64,000 bases of DNA from Verrucomicrobiia bacterium (GTDB lineage Bacteria; Verrucomicrobiota; Verrucomicrobiia; Limisphaerales; DASXHY01): positions 124,001 through 188,000 of the forward strand of contig DASPIL010000096.1 of NCBI GenBank assembly GCA_035629175.1. Reading direction: 5' to 3'. A program made the translations under genes and the position numbers. Position 1 is the first letter of the stretch; every line of letters begins with the position of its first letter. Below the pieces are notes generated by a model. It was given only the letters and a program-made list of their open reading frames with translations, made no database searches and was not told the origin of the DNA. Of this stretch, positions 8,317 through 17,565 are shown piece after piece.

Positions 8317-9408
8317 ATGATGAGTAATAATGCAGTGGAATCAACGGACACGGCCGGCGGGACATTGACTTCCCGGCAGCGGTTTGCGCGCGCTTGCCGC
8401 TGCGAACCTGTGGATCGTCCGCCGATGTGGCTGATGCGGCAGGCGGGACGAGCGTTGCCCGAATACCGCAAGCTCAAGGAGACCCACACGTTCGTGGAAC
8501 TCGTGCAGGATCCGGATCTGGCGACGGAGGTGACACTGCAGCCGATCCGCAGATTTGGCTTTGATGCGGCAATTCTCTTCAGCGACATCCTTGTGATACC
8601 CGAGGCAATGGGGCAGGCGTATCGTTTTCGGGAAACGGGCGGGGTGGTGATGGACTTTGCGGTGCGGAACAAGGCTGACGTGGACAAGCTTTCTGTCGAA
8701 CAGGTGTGCGGGCGATTGAGTTATGTGGACAAGGCGCTGCGGCGGCTGCGCACGGAGCTCGGCGACGACACGGCGTTGATTGGTTTCTCCGGTTCACCGT
8801 GGACGCTCGCGACGTTCATGATTGAGGGCGGGAGCGTTCCGCGTTACAGCCGGGCGCTGGCTGTGTTGCGGGAGGATCCCAGGACCTATTACGCGCTTGC
8901 GGAGAAATTGACGATGGCGGTGGCCGAATACCTGAAGATGCAGATTGCCGCAGGCGTTGACGCCCTTCAATTGTTTGACAGCCACGGGGGGCATCTGAGC
9001 GTGGCGGAGTTCGATGACGTTTCGGGCCGCTGGATGCGCGAGATCATTGCCGAGTTGCGCAGGAAGCATGTCAAGGCTACGCCGCCTGTGATTGTTTTTT
9101 CACTCGGAACGCATGGCAGCTGGCACGATTTGATGGCGACCGGCGCGAACGTGCTGGGAGTGGATTGGCAGACATCGCTTGCCGACGTGCGGAAGATCGT
9201 TCCAGAGCGGATTGCGTTGCAGGGAAATTTGGCGCCGGCATTGCTTGTCGAGGCGGCGCCGGATGTGGTCACACGCGAGACCCAGGCTGTGCTCGAGGCG
9301 ATGCGCGGGCGGAACGGACACATTTTCAACCTGGGCCACGGTTTGACCCCAGGGGCTACGCTGGAGAATATTCAGGCAGTCGTGGACACTGTGCGGAAGT
9401 TTCGATGA
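8317..9408 (+). CDS. hemE: Uroporphyrinogen decarboxylase
   Basis: 363 residues. WLMRQAGRALPEYRK is the family's N-terminal signature with the substrate-binding arginines, and AAILFSDILVIPEAMG carries the key aspartate. GFSGSPWTLATFMIEGG and the C-terminal GHIFNLGHGLTPGA are further hallmarks. The enzyme removes four acetate carboxyls from uroporphyrinogen III to give coproporphyrinogen III in the cytoplasm. Two ATGs lie in tandem (8317, 8320); the first is used here. Its stop overlaps the start of hemN (ATGA), and four haem genes follow one another on this strand, so they are very likely one operon. Confidence 0.97.
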   Translation: MMSNNAVESTDTAGGTLTSRQRFARACRCEPVDRPPMWLMRQAGRALPEYRKLKETHTFVELVQDPDLATEVTLQPIRRFGFDAAILFSDILVIPEAMGQAYRFRETGGVVMDFAVRNKADVDKLSVEQVCGRLSYVDKALRRLRTELGDDTALIGFSGSPWTLATFMIEGGSVPRYSRALAVLREDPRTYYALAEKLTMAVAEYLKMQIAAGVDALQLFDSHGGHLSVAEFDDVSGRWMREIIAELRRKHVKATPPVIVFSLGTHGSWHDLMATGANVLGVDWQTSLADVRKIVPERIALQGNLAPALLVEAAPDVVTRETQAVLEAMRGRNGHIFNLGHGLTPGATLENIQAVVDTVRKFR

Positions 9409-10781
9409 AGACGTTGAACGTAGATCTCGATCTGGTGCGGAAATACAATGTGGCTGGCCCCCGCTACACGAGTTATCCGCCCGCGACGAAGTTCACCGAT
9501 GCGGTGAGCTGGGAGCAGTTGTCGGAACGGATCGAGGCGAACAATCGTTCCACCCGCGACCTTTCCATTTACTTTCACATTCCGTTTTGCGAGACGCTCT
9601 GCTGGTTCTGCGGCTGCACGACAGTCATCACGCTCAATCACGACAAGGGCAAGGCGTATGTGGACTACCTCGAGCGTGAGGTGGCGCGCATGGCTCCGCA
9701 GCTGAATAGCGAACGGAAAGTCGTGCAACTGCACTTTGGCGGAGGATCACCGACGTTTCTCCGGCCAGAAGAAATCCGCCGGCTCGGTGCGATCATTCAC
9801 AGGCACTTTACGTTTGCGCCCGACATTGAGGCCAGCGTGGAGGTCGATCCGCGGCGGCTCACGCGAGATCACCTTGCAGCGTTGCGGGAGATTGGATTCA
9901 ACCGCGCTTCGATGGGCGTGCAGGATTTCAATCCCGAGGTGCAGAAGGCGATACACCGCATTCAACCGCGCGAGATGACGCAGCAGGCGATCGACTGGAT
10001 GCGTGAGCTGGGTTACAAGTCGATCAATCTCGACTTGATCTACGGCCTGCCGAACCAGACTCCCGCGACGTTCAATGAGACCCTGGATACAGTGCTCGAG
10101 ATGAAACCCGACCGGCTGGCAGTGTTCAGTTACGCGCATGTTCCATGGATCAAGCCCGCGCAGAAAATTCTCCAGGAAAAAGTGCTGCCGACGCCTGAAT
10201 CAAAGCTCGAGGTTCTGAAACTCGTGATTGAGCGGCTGACCGCGAATGATCAGTACGTGTACATCGGGATGGATCATTTTGCCAAACCGGAGGATGAACT
10301 GGCCGTCGCGCAGCGGAACAAGGAGCTTCAACGCAATTTCCAGGGATACAGCACACGCGCGGGATCGGACATCTACGCCTTTGGCATGTCGAGCATCTCG
10401 CAGATTCCGGATGCGTACTGGCAGAACGAAAAGGAGCTGCCGAAATATCAGGAAGCGGTCGACGCGGGACGCGTGCCATTGCATCGTGCCTACTTCGTGA
10501 CGGAGGAGGACAATCGCCGCCGTGAAACCATTATGCGCGTGATGTGCGATTTGTCGCTCGATTTCGCAGCGATGTCCCAAAAGCTCGGCATCGATTTTGA
10601 GGAACACTTTGCAAGCGAGCTGGCGGCGCTGGCGCCGTTTGAGGCGGACGGGTTGGTGAGGCAGATTCCAGGCGGTCTTGAGGTGACCGATGCGGGGCGC
10701 TTGTTCATCCGAAACATCGCGATGAGCTTCGACAATACACTGGCGCCTGCAGGCGAACGGCGGCATTCGAAGACCATTTGA
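9405..10781 (+). CDS. hemN: Oxygen-independent coproporphyrinogen III oxidase (radical SAM)
   Basis: 458 residues, starting at the ATG overlapping the hemE stop. The N-terminal RKYNVAGPRYTSYPPATKF is a HemN hallmark that distinguishes true HemN from HemW-like proteins. CETLCWFCGC holds the three cysteines for the [4Fe-4S]/SAM cluster plus the extra fourth cysteine. HFGGGSPTFL and the C-terminal HemN domain with LAVAQRNKELQRNFQGYSTR follow. It decarboxylates coproporphyrinogen III to protoporphyrinogen IX without oxygen. No oxygen-dependent hemF is seen in the window. Confidence 0.96.
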   Translation: MKTLNVDLDLVRKYNVAGPRYTSYPPATKFTDAVSWEQLSERIEANNRSTRDLSIYFHIPFCETLCWFCGCTTVITLNHDKGKAYVDYLEREVARMAPQLNSERKVVQLHFGGGSPTFLRPEEIRRLGAIIHRHFTFAPDIEASVEVDPRRLTRDHLAALREIGFNRASMGVQDFNPEVQKAIHRIQPREMTQQAIDWMRELGYKSINLDLIYGLPNQTPATFNETLDTVLEMKPDRLAVFSYAHVPWIKPAQKILQEKVLPTPESKLEVLKLVIERLTANDQYVYIGMDHFAKPEDELAVAQRNKELQRNFQGYSTRAGSDIYAFGMSSISQIPDAYWQNEKELPKYQEAVDAGRVPLHRAYFVTEEDNRRRETIMRVMCDLSLDFAAMSQKLGIDFEEHFASELAALAPFEADGLVRQIPGGLEVTDAGRLFIRNIAMSFDNTLAPAGERRHSKTI

Positions 10782-10870
10782 CCGTTGCGTTGCCACGACA
10801 TTGTGAATGTTTGCGCTCCTTCAACATTGTCCGGCAGCGGGGATTTCGCATCGTGTCGCGTGTCTGAACC

Positions 10871-12232
10871 ATGAAATCGGTTGCGATCATCGGAGCGGGA
10901 ATCACGGGGTTGACTGCTGCTTTTTACCTGAGGCGCAGAGGACTCGCTGTCGCAGTGTATGAGAGCGCAAACCGGGTGGGCGGCGTTATTCAGTCGGAAC
11001 GGCGGGACGGTTTCCTTGCAGAGTTTGGCCCAAACACAATCCTTGAAACGTCGCCGAAAGTTCGGCAATTGGTGATCGATGCAGGGCTGCAATCACGCCG
11101 CCTGGATCCCGATCCCCGCGCTGAAGCGCGTTACGTAGTGCGCTATCGGCGGCCAGTCGAAGCTCCCGCATCGCCTCCCGGGTTTCTCACGTCGGAGCTT
11201 TTTTCGTGGAAGGCAAAACTCGCCGTGCTGCGCGAACCATTCATTCCTGCGCGCCGCGACGGGGTGGAAGAGAGCATTGCGCAGTTTGTCATTCGGCGGT
11301 TCAACCAGGAATTTCTTGATCATGTGATCGATGCTCTGGTCGCGGGGATTTACGCGGGCGATCCCTACAAGCTTTCGGTGACTCACGCCTTTCCCAAACT
11401 CAAAGCGCTCGAGGATAACTACGGGTCGATGATCAAGGGACAGATCCTTGGCGCGCGTGAACGAAAGAAGCGCGGCGAGGTTGCCAAGGATCGGGCTCCA
11501 AAATTCTCTTTCGACGAAGGCCTGCAGGTGTTGCCCGATGAGTTGGCGAAGCAATTGGGCGATGCGGTCCGCCTGAACTGCCCGGTCACGGAGTTGACCC
11601 GCACGGATGCGGGATGGCGGGTCGAAACAAACGCGGGGCAGTTTGACCACGATGCGGTTGTCTATTGCGGGACGGCCCACAAACTGGCCGAGCTGCGGGT
11701 GAACACTCCCGTTCCACTCGACCTTCCGAGGCTGGCCGAAATCCGTTATCCGCCAGTCGCGAGTGTGGTCTTTGGGTTCAGGCGCGAGGACGTCGCACAT
11801 CCAGCCAGCGGGTTTGGCATGTTGATCCCGAGGGTCGAGGGATTCAAATTGCTCGGCACCATTTTCTCGTCGGCCCTTTTTCCCAATCGGGCTCCAGCCG
11901 GCCATTTGACGCTGACGAGTTACATCGGCGGCGAGCGTTATCCGGAACTGGCGGCGCTTCCACGCGATCAACTGTATGCTCTGGCCCTGGCGGATCTGCG
12001 AGTGCTCCTGGGAGTGCGGGGCGAGCCTGTGTTCCGCAATGCTGTGGTGTATCCGCGGGCGATTCCGCAATACAACGTCGGCTACGGGACGTTTCGGGAG
12101 TTGATGGGGCGGATCGAGCAGAAGGCGCCGGGGCTCTATTTGGCGGGGCATTATCGGGATGGCGTCTCGCTCAGCGATTCCATACTTTCCGGCTGCAATG
12201 TGGCGGAACGGATTCAACCTGGTGGCGCGTGA
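10871..12232 (+). CDS. hemG: Protoporphyrinogen oxidase, FAD-dependent (HemY/PgoX type)
   Basis: 453 residues. The FAD dinucleotide-binding loop is VAIIGAGITGLTAAFYL at the extreme N-terminus, followed by VYESANRVGGVIQS. The C-terminal flavin block LYLAGHYRDGVSLSDSILSG closes the fold. This is the monoamine-oxidase-like, oxygen-using type (often named hemY in bacteria), not the flavodoxin-like HemG of E. coli. It oxidises protoporphyrinogen IX to protoporphyrin IX. It sits 89 bases after hemN and 42 before hemH in the same direction. Confidence 0.93.
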   Translation: MKSVAIIGAGITGLTAAFYLRRRGLAVAVYESANRVGGVIQSERRDGFLAEFGPNTILETSPKVRQLVIDAGLQSRRLDPDPRAEARYVVRYRRPVEAPASPPGFLTSELFSWKAKLAVLREPFIPARRDGVEESIAQFVIRRFNQEFLDHVIDALVAGIYAGDPYKLSVTHAFPKLKALEDNYGSMIKGQILGARERKKRGEVAKDRAPKFSFDEGLQVLPDELAKQLGDAVRLNCPVTELTRTDAGWRVETNAGQFDHDAVVYCGTAHKLAELRVNTPVPLDLPRLAEIRYPPVASVVFGFRREDVAHPASGFGMLIPRVEGFKLLGTIFSSALFPNRAPAGHLTLTSYIGGERYPELAALPRDQLYALALADLRVLLGVRGEPVFRNAVVYPRAIPQYNVGYGTFRELMGRIEQKAPGLYLAGHYRDGVSLSDSILSGCNVAERIQPGGA

Positions 12233-12274
12233 CCCGCGTTTGCCGGGCGTTCGCGAATTGATCTCGAAATTCAA

Positions 12275-13291
12275 ATGAGCAAAGCAGTTTTATTGGTTAA
12301 TTTGGGTTCGCCCGACTCACCATCCGTTCCGGATGTGCGCCGTTACCTCAACGAGTTCCTGATGGACGCTCGCGTCATCGATACTCCGTGGGTGGCGCGG
12401 CGATTCATCGTAAGCATGATTCTATTGAACCGGCCGAAGGAGTCGGCTCATGCTTATCAAACCGTTTGGACCAAGGAGGGCTCGCCCCTGATTGTCACGA
12501 GCCGCAACGTGCAAAAGTTGTTGCAGCAGCGCGTATCGATGCCTGTCGAACTTGCAATGCGGTATCAGAACCCCAGCATTCGGGATGTGGTGCGCAAGCT
12601 GGCGCAGCGAGGCGTCACGGAACTCCTCCTGATTCCGCTATTTCCGCATTACGCGATGTCCAGCTTCGAAACCGCGGTCGTGCGAGTGCAGGAGGTTGCG
12701 GCGAAGATCGCGCCTGGCATGCGCGTCACAGTCCAGGGTCCGTATGGGGACGCTCCTGATTACATCAATGCGCTTGTGGCCAGTGCGGAGCCGTACCTGC
12801 AGAAGGATTTTGATTTTCTGTTGTTCAGCTTCCATGGCGTCCCGGAGCGGCAGATCCGCAAATCTGATCCGACGGGGCGTCATTGCCTGCAGGTGCAGGA
12901 TTGCTGCCGGGTGCCGAGCGAGGCGCACAAGTTTTGTTATCGGCATCAATGTTTTCGAACCGCGGACGAATTTAGCAAGGTGGCGGGCGTGCCTGCCGGA
13001 AAGTGGTCGGTTTCATTCCAGTCGCGCCTTGGAAAAGATCCATGGCTGACTCCCTTCACGGACAAGGAACTGGAACGGCTGGGCCAGCGGAAACTAAAAC
13101 GCCTGCTGGTGATCTGCCCCGCGTTTGTTTCGGATTGCCTTGAGACGATCGAGGAGATCGGGATGCGCGGGAAGGAGTCATTCGTTCAGGCTGGGGGAGG
13201 GGAGTTCTTCCAGATTCCGTGTCTCAATGAACACCCGCTTTGGATTGAGGCGCTGGCGGGAATGGTAAACCGCTTTGCCGGCGAGAAGTAA
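12275..13291 (+). CDS. hemH: Ferrochelatase
   Basis: 338 residues. MSKAVLLVNLGSPDSPSVPD is the classic ferrochelatase opening. YQTVWTKEGSPL, LIPLFPHYAMSSFE and FSFHGVPERQIRKSDPT are conserved blocks, the last carrying the metal-binding histidine. CPAFVSDCLETIEEIGM holds the catalytic glutamate region. It inserts Fe2+ into protoporphyrin IX. Five cysteines are packed at residues 204, 210, 211, 221 and 226, between the HGVP block and the C-terminal half. Cysteine-rich insertions in some ferrochelatases bind a [2Fe-2S] cluster; whether these do is not shown. It is the last gene of the haem operon and converges on the FeoA-type gene. Confidence 0.96.
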   Translation: MSKAVLLVNLGSPDSPSVPDVRRYLNEFLMDARVIDTPWVARRFIVSMILLNRPKESAHAYQTVWTKEGSPLIVTSRNVQKLLQQRVSMPVELAMRYQNPSIRDVVRKLAQRGVTELLLIPLFPHYAMSSFETAVVRVQEVAAKIAPGMRVTVQGPYGDAPDYINALVASAEPYLQKDFDFLLFSFHGVPERQIRKSDPTGRHCLQVQDCCRVPSEAHKFCYRHQCFRTADEFSKVAGVPAGKWSVSFQSRLGKDPWLTPFTDKELERLGQRKLKRLLVICPAFVSDCLETIEEIGMRGKESFVQAGGGEFFQIPCLNEHPLWIEALAGMVNRFAGEK

Positions 13292-13297
13292 CCGAGG

Positions 13298-13672
13298 TCA
13301 GGTGGCCCGTGCGGGCACGAAGAGAGGCTCGACCATGATTGCATGTGCCAGTTGCTCGCTGAGGGCAAGGCGCGCATTGCAGACCTGGCAGATGAAATTG
13401 TTCTGGCTGGTGATGAGTTTTACCACCTGTTCCTCGCCCAGTCCGATTTCCCGCAATCGATTTTGAACTTCCGGGGAGGCGCAGAGCTGCTTGATGCGAA
13501 CGGCGACGCCGGCCTTCACGCGGCTAAGCGGGCAAGGTTCGCAACGGATTTCGCCGGCAGGTATCTTCGCATCGTTGCTCACGGGGTATACAATGGGGGG
13601 AGGAGGCAGTGCGCGACTAACCCCGATTTGCGTTTTGCTGTTCCCGAATTGCAATCCAAGGTCAGCTCTCAA
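13298..13672 (-). CDS. FeoA-domain protein
   Basis: 124 residues from the first ATG, which overlaps the end of the upstream Cys-rich gene by 11 bases. A GTG at 13582 would give a 94-residue form starting at VSNDAKIPAGE. The C-terminal ~75 residues (PLSRVKAGVAVRIKQLCASP, then NRLREIGLGEEQVVKLI) have the FeoA SH3-like pattern known from ferrous iron transport. A CEPC pair precedes the domain, and the internal loop has CQVC, unusual for plain FeoA. There is no feoB nearby. It could be a metal-responsive helper of the aldehyde oxidase operon or of the adjacent haem genes; this is inference from position. Confidence 0.72.
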   Translation of the reverse strand: MRADLGLQFGNSKTQIGVSRALPPPPIVYPVSNDAKIPAGEIRCEPCPLSRVKAGVAVRIKQLCASPEVQNRLREIGLGEEQVVKLITSQNNFICQVCNARLALSEQLAHAIMVEPLFVPARAT

Positions 13673-13868
13673 AGCAGGGACGGGACGGATTACAGAGTTG
13701 AACGCTGACCTGGCAGTCGTCGAATCCGACTTCCGCGAGTGTTTTGTTGCACCAGCAATGCCCGCGGTGGGTCAGTTCATTTCCGCTGGTGGCGAAGACT
13801 TCGTCCTCTTGTTCCGGGATGTAAAGCTTCTTGGACCGCAGGTGGCGGCAGCATTGGTCAGGCTTCAT
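13662..13868 (-). CDS. Cys-rich small protein of unknown function
   Basis: 68 residues beginning MKPDQCCRHLRSKKLYIPEQ. It contains CC, CWC and two more single cysteines near the end (LCNPSRPCFES), plus three histidines, so metal or cluster binding is plausible. The ATG follows the stop of the FAD subunit gene by one base, and its end overlaps the FeoA-type gene, so it is translated as part of this operon. The composition is protein-like rather than a chance frame, and I know of similar small proteins in Verrucomicrobia only from memory. No function is assigned. Confidence 0.65.
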   Translation of the reverse strand: MKPDQCCRHLRSKKLYIPEQEDEVFATSGNELTHRGHCWCNKTLAEVGFDDCQVSVQLCNPSRPCFES

Positions 13869-13869
13869 A

Positions 13870-14832
13870 TCATGCGATCAGTTGCATCAAGGTGCGGCGG
13901 ACCAGCGCGCGGGCCATCGGCACCTTGTATCCATTGTGTTCCATGGGTTCCGCCCGCGCGAGCAGCAGGCGCGCGGCTTCATCGGCTGTGGCCTCGTCCA
14001 GGGTCTTGCCCTGGAGGAAATCATTCGCCGCCTTCACCATGTGGGGCACTGGGGAGATGGCACCGAGCGCAATGCGGACGCTGCTCAGCTGCCTGCCATT
14101 CACGGTTGCGGATACCGAGCAGCTCACAAGCGCCCAATCGAACGATGCTTTTTCGCTGATCTGCTGGTAGGCGCTTTTCTGCGAGGGCTGAACGGGGACT
14201 TCAACCCGGACGACGAGGTCGCCGGCATTCAGGGAATTATGCGCCAGGGGGTTTTCCCATGCCTTGGCGTAGAACTCAGGGATCGTCATTCGCTTTTCCT
14301 GCCCGCCACTGAACACCACGACCGTGGCATCGAGCACTGCCAGGGCGATCGAGAGATTCGAAACGACGGGGCTGATGCACGTGTTGCCGCTGAAGAGGCT
14401 GTGATATTTGTTTTCGCCATGGCGGGCATAGCAAAGATCGCCCTTCTTCTTCAGGCATACCGTGTCGCGATGCCGGTAATACCAGCATCGGGAATGCTGC
14501 GACAGATTTCCCGCAATCGTTGCAACGTTGCGAATCTGCCGGGAACCCACCTCGGCGGCGGCCTGCTGCAGACCTGGGAAGACGCGTTTGAGTTCTGAAT
14601 GATCCTCCAACTCAGCGACCGTAACCGTGGCTCCAAGCTTCCAGGCGGTCGGGCCTGGTTCGATGCGATTCAAGCCGAGTGTCTTGACGTTGACGAGCGT
14701 TTTCGGTTCGACCAGATAATCCTTCATCCGGTTCAACACGTCGTTCCCGCCGCCGAGGTAGGCGCCGTTATCGCCCAATAATTCCCGGGCGCTGGCAGGC
14801 GACGTGGCGCTGGCGTACTGAAATGCGTTCAT
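13870..14832 (-). CDS. FAD-binding subunit of a PaoABC-like molybdenum aldehyde oxidoreductase
   Basis: 320 residues of the CO-dehydrogenase flavoprotein / xanthine dehydrogenase subunit M family. AYLGGGNDVLNRMK and IRNVATIAGNL are the two FAD-binding blocks. Between them and the C-terminal domain lies a cysteine set at 116, 126, 134 and 152 (SRCWYYRHRDTVC... GDLC... GNTC). This corresponds to the extra [4Fe-4S] cluster known in E. coli PaoB and in 4-hydroxybenzoyl-CoA reductase beta, and is absent from ordinary xanthine dehydrogenases. Its start overlaps the stop of the molybdopterin subunit. It should pass electrons from the iron-sulfur subunit to an outside acceptor via FAD. Confidence 0.87.
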   Translation of the reverse strand: MNAFQYASATSPASARELLGDNGAYLGGGNDVLNRMKDYLVEPKTLVNVKTLGLNRIEPGPTAWKLGATVTVAELEDHSELKRVFPGLQQAAAEVGSRQIRNVATIAGNLSQHSRCWYYRHRDTVCLKKKGDLCYARHGENKYHSLFSGNTCISPVVSNLSIALAVLDATVVVFSGGQEKRMTIPEFYAKAWENPLAHNSLNAGDLVVRVEVPVQPSQKSAYQQISEKASFDWALVSCSVSATVNGRQLSSVRIALGAISPVPHMVKAANDFLQGKTLDEATADEAARLLLARAEPMEHNGYKVPMARALVRRTLMQLIA

Positions 14833-16922
14833 ACGACGGGTGCTTTATCCTTGTTCAATGCGTTCAAGATTTTCTGAGGCGTGATCGGCAGGCTGCCGAC
14901 GCGCACGCCGATTGCGTTGGCGACGGCGTTGGCGATCGCGGATGCGGTGGGTATTGTGACCGGTTCTCCGATGCCAATGACGCCGCGCTCAGGCATGTCG
15001 AGGAGCACGACATCGATTTCAGGCATGTCGGCGATTCCGGGCAGCTTGTAGGTTTCGAAATTTGGATTCAGGACCACGCCGGAAAGCTCATCCATGATGC
15101 GCTCCTCGTAGAGCGCGTAGCCGATGCCCATGATGATGCCGCCGTTGACCTGGCTTTCACAGGTGAGCTTGCTGACGATCAATCCGCCATCCTGCACGCA
15201 GGTGATTTTCTTCACGCGGGTGAAGCCTGTTTCTGTATCAACTTCGACCTCGGCGAACTGCACGCCGGCGGCGCCGCTTGACGAGAGACCTTCCTGCCAT
15301 CGTCCCTGAACCGTTACGGGGTTCATGCCGAGCTTGCGGCACGCGCCAATCCATTGTTCGCCGCGGGCGTCCGCGACTCCACTGCGTTCCTGCAGTTGCT
15401 GCAGCGCCCTGGTGCAGGTATCGAAAATGGCGGGCGACACGGAAGCCGCGGTCGTGCTGCCGCCGCTTGCGCCCGATGGCGGGAACGTGCTGTTGCCGAC
15501 GCGCACATCAATTTGTTCCGGCTTTAATCCAAATATGTCCGCCGCGATCACTGCGATGAGAGTCTTGGTCCCCGTTCCCAGGTCCTGCGTACCGCAACGC
15601 ACCTCGACGCTCCCATCGGGATTCACCTGTGCTTCCGCCTGGGTTCCGCGTCCGCCGCCGCCCCAGGTTGCCGCGGCGCAGCCAACCCCGGTTTTGATGG
15701 GTCCGTTGGAACTGCCGGGCTTCTTGTATTTGTCCTTCCAGCCGAATCGTTCAGCGCCCAGTCGAAACTGGCGCGCGCGGATTTCGCGGCTGTTCGACCG
15801 ATCGTTCTTGATGCGCAATTCAACGGGATCCATTCCAATGCGCGCCGCGATGTCGTCGAGCATCGACTCGATTCCAAACGAAGCGGGTGGATGGCCGGGA
15901 GCGCGGAACGCGCGGGCCGAACCTGCGTTCGTTGCTACGGAGGTCTGGCGAACGCGGATGTTCGGAACGTGGTACAGATACGGCGCGGGGATCGAAACGT
16001 CGCCGCTGCCCGCAGCGCTTGCGCCACCCGATGCGAAACCCGGGGTGCCGAAGTTTTCCATTTCGAATGCGAGCAGGTCTCCATCTGCGTTGGCGCCCAT
16101 CCGGAGTTTTTGAAAAGTGGAAGGACGATTTCCTACTGCGAGCGATTGGTCAAAGCGGGTCAGCATCAGTTTGACCGGCGCTTTGGCTTCCTGTGAGAGG
16201 CGCGCCGCCATTCCACCTTCCACGCCCAGGCCCATCTTGGCTCCGAAACCGCCGCCCATGAATTCCGTGAGCACGCGGACTTTGCTCTGCTGCAGTCCGA
16301 GGTAACTGGCAAGGTCATTGCGGACGCCGCCAATTCCCTGCGTCGATGCCCAGCAGGTGACCTCGTCGTCCTTCACAGAAATTGTGTTGCCATGCGTCTC
16401 GAGCGGATGATGCAGTTGCACCGGAGTCGAGAAACTTCCCTCCACGATGACGGTTGAATCCGCGAAACCCTTTTCGACATCGCCGCGTTCGTTGACACGC
16501 GGGCGGGTGGTGTTCAGGCCCTCCGGCCAAACGCGCGGGGCGGTTTCCTTCATTGCCTCGGCTTCCTTTACGACGAAAGGCAGGGGTTCAGCCTGAACTT
16601 CAATCAGGCGCAACGCATCGATGCAGGCCTGCTTGCTTGTCCCGGCGACGGCGGCGATTTCTTCGCCGTAGTAGCGGACGATTCTGTCGGCGCGGTTATC
16701 GCGGAGGATTGCAGCCTTGATGCCAGGAACCTGGCGGGCTTTTTCGAGGTTGATTGCAGTGATCTTTGCAGCGGGCCATTTGGAACGAAGGATCATCCCG
16801 TAAAGCCAGCCTTCCGGCTGGACATCTGAAGGGTACTTCGCGGCGCCTGTGACTTTGTCCGGGGCATCAATGCGCCTGGCGCTGCTCCCGATGTGCGTTC
16901 TGTTTTCAGGCCAGCTTGGCAT
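14829..16922 (-). CDS. Molybdopterin-binding catalytic subunit of a PaoABC-like aldehyde oxidoreductase
   Basis: 697 residues of the xanthine dehydrogenase large-subunit family. RIDAPDKVTGAAKYPSDVQP opens the a/b-hammerhead domain. GGGFGAKMGLGVEGGMAA, FRAPGHPPASFGIES and GTQDLGTGTKTLIA are cofactor-contacting blocks. The general-base glutamate lies in GVIGIGEPVTIPTASAIANA near the C-terminus. It oxidises an aldehyde (or related hydroxylatable substrate) using water and a molybdenum-bound oxygen. Shorter than XdhB of gut bacteria, it fits the PaoC size class. It overlaps both neighbours by a few bases. No XdhC-like insertase gene is seen nearby. Confidence 0.88.
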   Translation of the reverse strand: MPSWPENRTHIGSSARRIDAPDKVTGAAKYPSDVQPEGWLYGMILRSKWPAAKITAINLEKARQVPGIKAAILRDNRADRIVRYYGEEIAAVAGTSKQACIDALRLIEVQAEPLPFVVKEAEAMKETAPRVWPEGLNTTRPRVNERGDVEKGFADSTVIVEGSFSTPVQLHHPLETHGNTISVKDDEVTCWASTQGIGGVRNDLASYLGLQQSKVRVLTEFMGGGFGAKMGLGVEGGMAARLSQEAKAPVKLMLTRFDQSLAVGNRPSTFQKLRMGANADGDLLAFEMENFGTPGFASGGASAAGSGDVSIPAPYLYHVPNIRVRQTSVATNAGSARAFRAPGHPPASFGIESMLDDIAARIGMDPVELRIKNDRSNSREIRARQFRLGAERFGWKDKYKKPGSSNGPIKTGVGCAAATWGGGGRGTQAEAQVNPDGSVEVRCGTQDLGTGTKTLIAVIAADIFGLKPEQIDVRVGNSTFPPSGASGGSTTAASVSPAIFDTCTRALQQLQERSGVADARGEQWIGACRKLGMNPVTVQGRWQEGLSSSGAAGVQFAEVEVDTETGFTRVKKITCVQDGGLIVSKLTCESQVNGGIIMGIGYALYEERIMDELSGVVLNPNFETYKLPGIADMPEIDVVLLDMPERGVIGIGEPVTIPTASAIANAVANAIGVRVGSLPITPQKILNALNKDKAPVV

Positions 16923-17565
16923 AGGAAATCACCTCGGTTTTGCTGCTTACCTGGACGCCGGCAGCTTTGAGCGCGGCTTCGAGTATGCGGGGTTGGGTGC
17001 CGCAGCGGCACAAATTGCCCGAGCAGGCGTGCTTCACGTCCGCGGCTGTCGGCTTGGAATTCTTTTTCAACAACGCGGTGACGCTCATCACAAACCCGGG
17101 TGTGCAGTAGCCGCACATCAAGGCGTCCTGGCTGATGAACGCTTCCTGCACGCGGCTCAGCTTGCCGTCAGCAGCAATGCCTTCAATTGTCGTGATCGCT
17201 TTGCCTTGCGCCTCGATCGCCAGCATTGAGCAGGAATAAACGGGTTTGTCATCGACGAGGATCGTGCACGCACCGCAGCTGGCGCGATCACATACCTCCT
17301 TGGCGCCGGTGAGCGGGGTGAGGTTGCGCAACGCTTCAAGCAGCGTCACGCGCGGCTGCACCTGAAGGTTCACAGGCTTGCCATTCAGTTGAAGCGTGAT
17401 CGGAACGGCGTCGGGTCCGATGACCTTTTCCGCATTCACCCTTTCGAGTTCGGCCGCGACTGCCTGGACTTGCGCCGTGGCAGCTACCGCCGCTGTTGCG
17501 CCGAACGATTTGAGAAATGATCGGCGTGTTACGGAAAAGCCGTCGTTGGAGGAAGCTTCGCTCAT
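16906..17565 (-). CDS. Tat-exported [2Fe-2S] subunit of a PaoABC-like aldehyde oxidoreductase
   Basis: 219 residues. The N-terminus has a twin-arginine signal, SVTRRSFLKSFGATAAVAAT, so the whole folded complex is probably carried to the periplasm, as for E. coli PaoA. The first cluster uses CDRASCGACTILVDD and a later SCSML; the second uses MCGYCTPGF and CSGNLCRCG. Role: electron relay between the molybdenum site and FAD. It is the first gene of the minus-strand operon that continues with the large and FAD subunits, the Cys-rich protein and the FeoA-type protein. Confidence 0.9.
   Translation of the reverse strand: MSEASSNDGFSVTRRSFLKSFGATAAVAATAQVQAVAAELERVNAEKVIGPDAVPITLQLNGKPVNLQVQPRVTLLEALRNLTPLTGAKEVCDRASCGACTILVDDKPVYSCSMLAIEAQGKAITTIEGIAADGKLSRVQEAFISQDALMCGYCTPGFVMSVTALLKKNSKPTAADVKHACSGNLCRCGTQPRILEAALKAAGVQVSSKTEVISYAKLA

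Follow-up and report, generated by a model that had tools for sequence, protein, structure and literature searches.

Cys68, a cysteine-rich small protein encoded with a predicted Tat-exported molybdoenzyme of a Verrucomicrobiia bacterium

The closest described counterpart of the system treated here is PaoABC of Escherichia coli, made up of a 2Fe-2S subunit (PaoA) tagged for twin-arginine translocation (Tat), an FAD subunit with four clustered cysteines (PaoB), and a molybdenum (Mo) subunit (PaoC). PaoB and PaoC are exported as hitchhikers on PaoA (PMC4273604). The product of the fourth gene, paoD, is described in PMC3909100 as an XdhC-like chaperone, not a subunit, that is required for inserting the sulfurated cofactor. 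A related operon lies in the window, a stretch of 64,000 nucleotides (positions 124,001 to 188,000 of contig DASPIL010000096.1) from a Verrucomicrobiia bacterium whose draft genome (GCA_035629175.1, here G000) comprises 5.4 Mb in 108 contigs. Its core ends in a gene for a 68-residue protein, given the working name Cys68, which is tied to the enzyme in three phyla and may be a fourth subunit of it. Other genomes, contigs, and loci are cited by G, C, and L numbers.

Operon layout and enzyme type

The genes lie on the minus strand, with neighbors overlapping or 1 base apart:

16906..17565, minus strand: PaoA-like 2x[2Fe-2S] subunit with Tat-type signal, 219 residues; Fer2 and Fer2_2 above the Pfam cut-off
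14829..16922, minus strand: PaoC-like Mo-cofactor subunit, 697 residues; MoCoBD_1, MoCoBD_2, and Ald_Xan_dh_C above the Pfam cut-off
13870..14832, minus strand: PaoB-like FAD subunit, 320 residues; FAD_binding_5 and CO_deh_flav_C above the Pfam cut-off
13662..13868, minus strand: Cys68, 68 residues, probable fourth enzyme component, from linkage, conservation, coupling, and dN/dS

The three subunits carry the 2Fe-2S, FAD, and Mo-cofactor domains of the xanthine oxidase family, as in PaoABC. The gene order, in contrast, is A-C-B and not the A-B-C of E. coli, and Cys68 closes the core operon, in the place taken by paoD in E. coli; “A-C-B type” is used below as a working name for the enzyme. The Mo-subunit gene overlaps the 2Fe-2S-subunit gene by 17 bases, the FAD-subunit gene overlaps the Mo-subunit gene by 4 bases, and the Cys68 gene begins 1 base past the FAD-gene stop. 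No promoter or terminator signal above shuffled sequence was detected. The nearest named relative found, Verrucomicrobia subdivision 3 bacterium UBA3939 (L002), has an identical gene order with 69–79% protein identity.

At the N-terminus of the 2Fe-2S subunit is a twin-arginine (RR) Tat-type motif, SVTRRSFLK, clear by eye and scoring 20.7 bits against the TAT_signal cut-off of 22.7. In the FAD subunit the four-cysteine set occupies positions 116, 126, 134, and 152, with another cysteine at 238. A first-pass annotation of the window had named both the Tat signal and the four-cysteine cluster; the four cysteines and an RR Tat-type N-terminus are borne out. In the Mo subunit, Glu653 lies in a GIGEP stretch and is invariant among 12 A-C-B Mo subunits. 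It is presumably the catalytic glutamate of the xanthine oxidase family.

Similarity to E. coli PaoABC is limited, with identities of 39% for PaoA, 31% for PaoB, and 30% for PaoC. The NCBIfam model for PaoC is missed at 370.3 bits (cut-off 1180), and because the PaoA model is missed as well, at 161.7 bits against 322, the 2Fe-2S subunit is not an equivalog of E. coli PaoA. Among structures in the Protein Data Bank (PDB), the Mo subunit matches the large subunit of an aldehyde oxidase (5y6q) first and PaoC (5g5h) second.

A Mo-subunit tree of 95 rows was built with FastTree, with SH-like support and no other xanthine oxidase families included. Outside it are L088, L170, ten short Mo-subunit frames, and three loci with no such frame (L049, L111, and L174). 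E. coli PaoC, which with L113 drew a long-branch warning from the program, groups at a support of 100 with L053, L054, L055, and L058. These four loci come from the window’s class, have the A-B-C order, lack Cys68, and are 51–63% identical to E. coli PaoA and PaoB; the RR motif is seen in L054 and L055 and not in L053 or L058. On the opposite side are 88 carriers of Cys68, the window included. Among the carriers fall L048 and L050, two loci of A-C-B order without Cys68 that are read from the tree as a single loss. Both enzyme types occur in one genome, G172 (L039 and L053). The RR motif is present in 83 of the 86 PaoA-like subunits of carrier loci, and two of the three frames without it (L095 and L099) begin right at the end of a contig. 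Each of the eight 2Fe-2S cysteines is kept in 95–100% of rows.

By sequence, then, the window’s enzyme is a predicted Tat-exported molybdoenzyme of the xanthine oxidase family that differs in type from PaoABC of E. coli. It is probably an aldehyde oxidoreductase, judging its substrate from its relatives.

Cys68 and its linkage to the enzyme

Cys68 of the window contains seven cysteines, at positions 6, 7, 38, 40, 52, 59, and 65. Across 102 aligned sequences, which were picked by profile match and thus favor conserved residues, Cys7, Lys13, Cys40, Cys59, Arg63, and Cys65 are invariant. Gly48 (101/102), Asp50 (95/102), Thr43 (94/102), and Trp39 (84/102) are kept in most. The seven cysteines counted in the first pass are present, but four are kept across the family and the remaining three are unconserved. 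Four cysteines that never vary point to a metal site.

Cys68 matches no Pfam or NCBIfam family above cut-off (best Pfam score 14.2 bits against 27) and has no relative in the PDB, where the best match, at an E-value of 1.2, covers one of the four cysteines. An accessory protein of this sort was likewise not found in those databases or in literature titles and abstract openings. E. coli K-12 has a small, cysteine-rich protein encoded near its pao genes, YkgJ, of the CxxCxxCC type (PF03692). Its cysteine pattern differs from that of Cys68, and the two give no BLAST match at an E-value of 1 or better. The ykgJ gene (L205, 7854-8183), which encodes a metal-chelating CxxCxxCC domain, lies 1.3 kb from paoA.

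Divergence between close copies (L012 and L013, method NG86) is 0.079 at nonsynonymous (dN) and 0.37 at synonymous sites (dS), a dN/dS of about 0.2; between the window and L002, dN is 0.26 with dS near saturation. From these values, Cys68 is a gene under purifying selection. The large open frames around some matches in GC-rich genomes are taken as frame overlap.

The first relatives of Cys68, three in number, came from genome contigs recorded as Verrucomicrobia, Glassbacteria, and Planctomycetales. Whole-genome searches place it in the Verrucomicrobiota, Planctomycetota, and Glassbacteria. It is present in 15 of 236 genomes of the window’s class (13 by whole-genome search, with L056 and L057 added by profile). 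The phylum to which the Planctomycetales genome belongs has it in 81 of 294 genomes sampled, and that of the Glassbacteria genome in 5 of 121. Absences among the 294 are soft: with no more than 20 first-look candidates scored in each genome, that search overlooked at least one true Cys68 (G502, L215). The PaoB search of the window’s class used a limit of 1e-40, which leaves weaker relatives outside the sample. Viral contigs and plasmids yielded no relative.

Linkage to the enzyme is strict. Each of the 101 other loci read has a PaoB-like gene upstream of Cys68 and on its strand; L170, a duplicate of L003, was removed from this count, and the PaoB-like gene of L088, a locus with overlapping frames, was established individually. 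From the PaoB stop to the codon of the first invariant cysteine the median distance is 45 nt, and it is at most 150 nt in 99 of the 101; L051 (335 nt) and L130 (847 nt) are the exceptions. No Cys68 away from PaoB appeared in the whole-genome searches, in which every place was read except that of G288 (81 of the 82 places in the 294-genome search). The first-pass view that the 68-residue protein belongs with the enzyme thus gains from the wider sample, in which Cys68 was not seen independently of it.

Linkage and conservation over three phyla are beyond chance. They also bear on the idea that Cys68 is unrelated to the enzyme, for example a regulator or a stress protein co-transcribed with the enzyme genes but without effect on their products. 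With linkage in 101 of 101 loci across three phyla, and with carriers standing together on the tree, this is improbable.

Proposed role of Cys68

A role in place of the cofactor chaperone was the first to be proposed. The first pass correctly saw that the operon has no xdhC or paoD gene, and suggested that Cys68 and a FeoA-domain protein encoded downstream replace the chaperone in cofactor sulfuration or cluster loading. Cys68 does resemble the XdhC/PaoD family (PF02625, PF13478) in its operon position and in dedication to enzymes of the xanthine oxidase family; it differs in having neither domain and in co-occurring with XdhC. The window’s own genome holds one xdhC match, on another contig, C51. 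Of 77 Cys68 genomes tested, 73 proved to have XdhC: all 18 of one set and 55 of the 59 in another, a set made up of 55 of the 80 other carriers from the 294-genome search and 4 from the Glassbacteria-phylum search. The four of these 59 carriers in which no XdhC was found (G381, G411, G417, and G463), where draft-genome gaps are possible, are what speaks for replacement beyond the window’s operon itself.

At least 11 of the 101 Cys68 loci also have the chaperone gene close to the operon; the fetched stretches span 2–16 kb, so this count and those for mocA and DUF1326 are lower bounds. It lies upstream in L040, L043, and L046, with a MocA-like gene directly before PaoA, and upstream with a gap in L051. 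In L171–L174 it is directly 3' of Cys68, and it is also nearby in L003, L097, and L124. In two drafts, G111 and G136, the A-C-B Mo subunit is the sole MoCoBD_2 match of the genome and its cluster includes both XdhC and Cys68; XdhC therefore most likely serves the A-C-B enzyme there. A replacement of XdhC by Cys68 is rejected on these occurrences, and the combined form with FeoA, a gene that adjoins PaoB in just two of the 30 loci examined for it, is very improbable. The grounds that the first pass itself named against its view apply by half: an xdhC does exist elsewhere and FeoA stands apart from the enzyme, but Cys68 does not.

Two Mo proteins of the xanthine oxidase family are encoded in the window’s genome, the present one and another, read as IorB-like, on C40. 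The second enzyme (L223, 5299-7973) is IorAB-like by reading, with no FAD gene seen beside it. In L040 (4372-8884), XdhC- and MocA-like genes stand between two enzymes of the xanthine oxidase family, as if common to both.

Loading of the FAD-subunit cluster as the sole function of Cys68 is likewise rejected. By a plain count of cysteines within the segment, leaving out L111 and L174 (cut by a contig or stretch end), 22 of 100 Cys68 loci have fewer than four: 11 have one, 1 has two, and 10 have three. Among the 22 are L004, L056, L057, L092, L095, L096, and L104. Cys68 keeps its own four cysteines in all 22. Conversely, the PaoABC relatives L053, L054, L055, and L058 have the full FAD set and no Cys68. 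As regards this cluster, the loading suggested in the first pass is unsupported.

The preferred reading, held at a probability of roughly 0.48, is that Cys68 is a fourth, peripheral subunit of the A-C-B enzyme, with a metal centre on its four invariant cysteines, that rides out through Tat. Cys68 would join the A-C-B complex in the cytoplasm, and its four cysteines would hold an Fe-S or Zn centre. No signal peptide was seen on it by eye, so its export would depend on the PaoA-like subunit with its Tat tag, in the manner of PaoB and PaoC in E. coli. Once outside, it might relay electrons or stabilize the complex, while sulfuration and insertion of the Mo cofactor would be left to the ordinary XdhC of the genome. 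The gene, its strict linkage, its invariant residues, and its co-existence with XdhC are established directly; that it binds a metal, contacts the enzyme, is exported, and acts in electron transfer is inferred.

The most serious rival, considered somewhat less probable, is that Cys68 is a dedicated cytoplasmic factor working beside XdhC in assembly or quality control, for instance of the 2Fe-2S clusters, subunit joining, or release to Tat. Several observations are consistent with this. The gene stands last in the core operon, as paoD does in E. coli (PMC3909100); the protein has no signal peptide by eye and is poorly conserved outside its key residues. Moreover, Cys68 was lost in a few lineages that keep the enzyme, and it persists in the 22 loci with reduced FAD cysteines while the 2Fe-2S cysteines of the PaoA-like subunit are retained. 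The subunit reading is placed slightly ahead because Cys68 was never seen unlinked, whereas XdhC, MocA, and DUF1326 mostly are in the stretches read; such linkage is expected of a subunit gene rather than of a maturation gene with several clients. However, a factor dedicated to a single enzyme could also stay linked without being a subunit.

Other points weigh against a fourth subunit. Cys68 is typical of the A-C-B type, yet not universal. Mo-subunit matches of at least 600 bits number 89 in 88 of the 294 genomes (at most three candidates scored per genome), and 75 of these 88 have Cys68. The remaining 13 genomes hold 14 of the matches, all of which were read. One (G502, L215) does have Cys68; in seven (L208, L210, L212, L213, L214, L218, and L219) the contig ends before its place; and six (L206, L207, L209, L211, L216, and L217) have sufficient downstream sequence without it. 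Two weaker matches (L220 and L221, 514–519 bits) likewise lack it. With L048 and L050, eight A-C-B loci that are complete downstream have no Cys68, which makes it dispensable for catalysis in general. These losses, together with modest conservation, speak against an essential catalytic role. A comparison of subunit columns with and without Cys68 gave only weak ones, none clearly marking the losses.

The protein itself adds to the doubt. The spacing of its cysteines is not known to fit any Fe-S or Zn motif, AlphaFold2 on four sequences gave no usable model (pLDDT 43.6), and no biochemical evidence was found. Fusions of Cys68 to a subunit were not noticed, though no systematic search was made. 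In close relatives Cys68 diverges more than PaoB (40% against 64% identity in L041 and 39% against 63% in L043), which also fits an assembly factor; in the distant relatives L003 and L004 it is not less conserved than PaoB.

Neighboring genes and significance

Beyond Cys68, two convergent genes close the cluster:

13298..13582, minus strand: FeoA-domain protein (PF04023, scored on the longer TTG form), a neighbor judged outside the system
12275..13291, plus strand: putative ferrochelatase-like protein (HemH); convergent, at the cluster end, outside the system; in 6 of 30 FeoA loci a relative lies opposite that gene

The FeoA match is clear (45.4 bits, cut-off 23), and the CEPC and CQVC motifs named in the first pass are present. 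The same annotation had the operon continue into FeoA with one-base spacing and overlaps, which is true of Cys68 and doubtful for FeoA. The FeoA gene overlaps Cys68 only if it starts at TTG 13672; a start at GTG 13582 gives 94 residues and a 79-base gap. The whole open frame in L002 (8531-8821, 97 codons including the stop) comes close to the GTG form in length, so GTG 13582 is the likelier start. In L002, moreover, the FeoA match starts 366 bases after the Cys68 match. FeoA is not tightly coupled to the operon.

Nor is FeoA a partner of the enzyme, as had been supposed. The same FeoA occurs in 80 of 97 genomes of the window’s order, far more than carry Cys68. PaoB is beside it in two of the 30 FeoA loci read, the window and L176, and a ferrochelatase faces it in six, both of these included; matches in L176 show the same identities as those in L002 and may come from the same species. 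In G191 the enzyme is encoded on C116, away from FeoA and ferrochelatase, which share C15. FeoA as a part of the system is rejected on these counts, and its domain sits in a neighbor gene that is independent of the enzyme. It is read here as an iron or heme neighbor that lies downstream in the window’s lineage. Three plus-strand genes (9165-13291) run towards the FeoA gene; we take them to be HemN-, HemG/HemY-, and HemH-like heme synthesis genes.

Two further genes recur near the operon. One, mocA, is within the fetched stretch in at least 6 of 101 loci. The other encodes a DUF1326 protein (PF07040) with a signal-like N-terminus and is nearby in at least 24 of 101, beside the A-C-B operon in, for example, L039, L043, L044, L045, L002, L047, L051, L056, and L057. 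By Pfam, DUF1326 is present in 11 of the 15 Cys68 genomes of the window’s class, one of them below cut-off, and in none of five without Cys68; G165 and G136 are negative by Pfam and have linked copies by BLAST. The copy in the window’s genome is unlinked (L222, 5422-6120) and 52% identical to that of L039. A literature search on DUF1326 found nothing. DUF1326 is a possible further partner of the enzyme, and shared ancestry could explain the association.

A bolder proposal, rather unlikely as it stands, is that Cys68 would be the first member of a new protein family, a metal-centre subunit that gives a widespread type of Tat-exported enzyme of the xanthine oxidase family an electron outlet or a built-in export check absent from PaoABC, with the DUF1326 protein, probably exported, as a possible partner. 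The enzyme family itself is textbook material, but the database and literature searches turned up no accessory like Cys68. Its strict linkage offers a handle on how exported enzymes of the xanthine oxidase family hand over electrons, and on what controls their maturation ahead of export through Tat.

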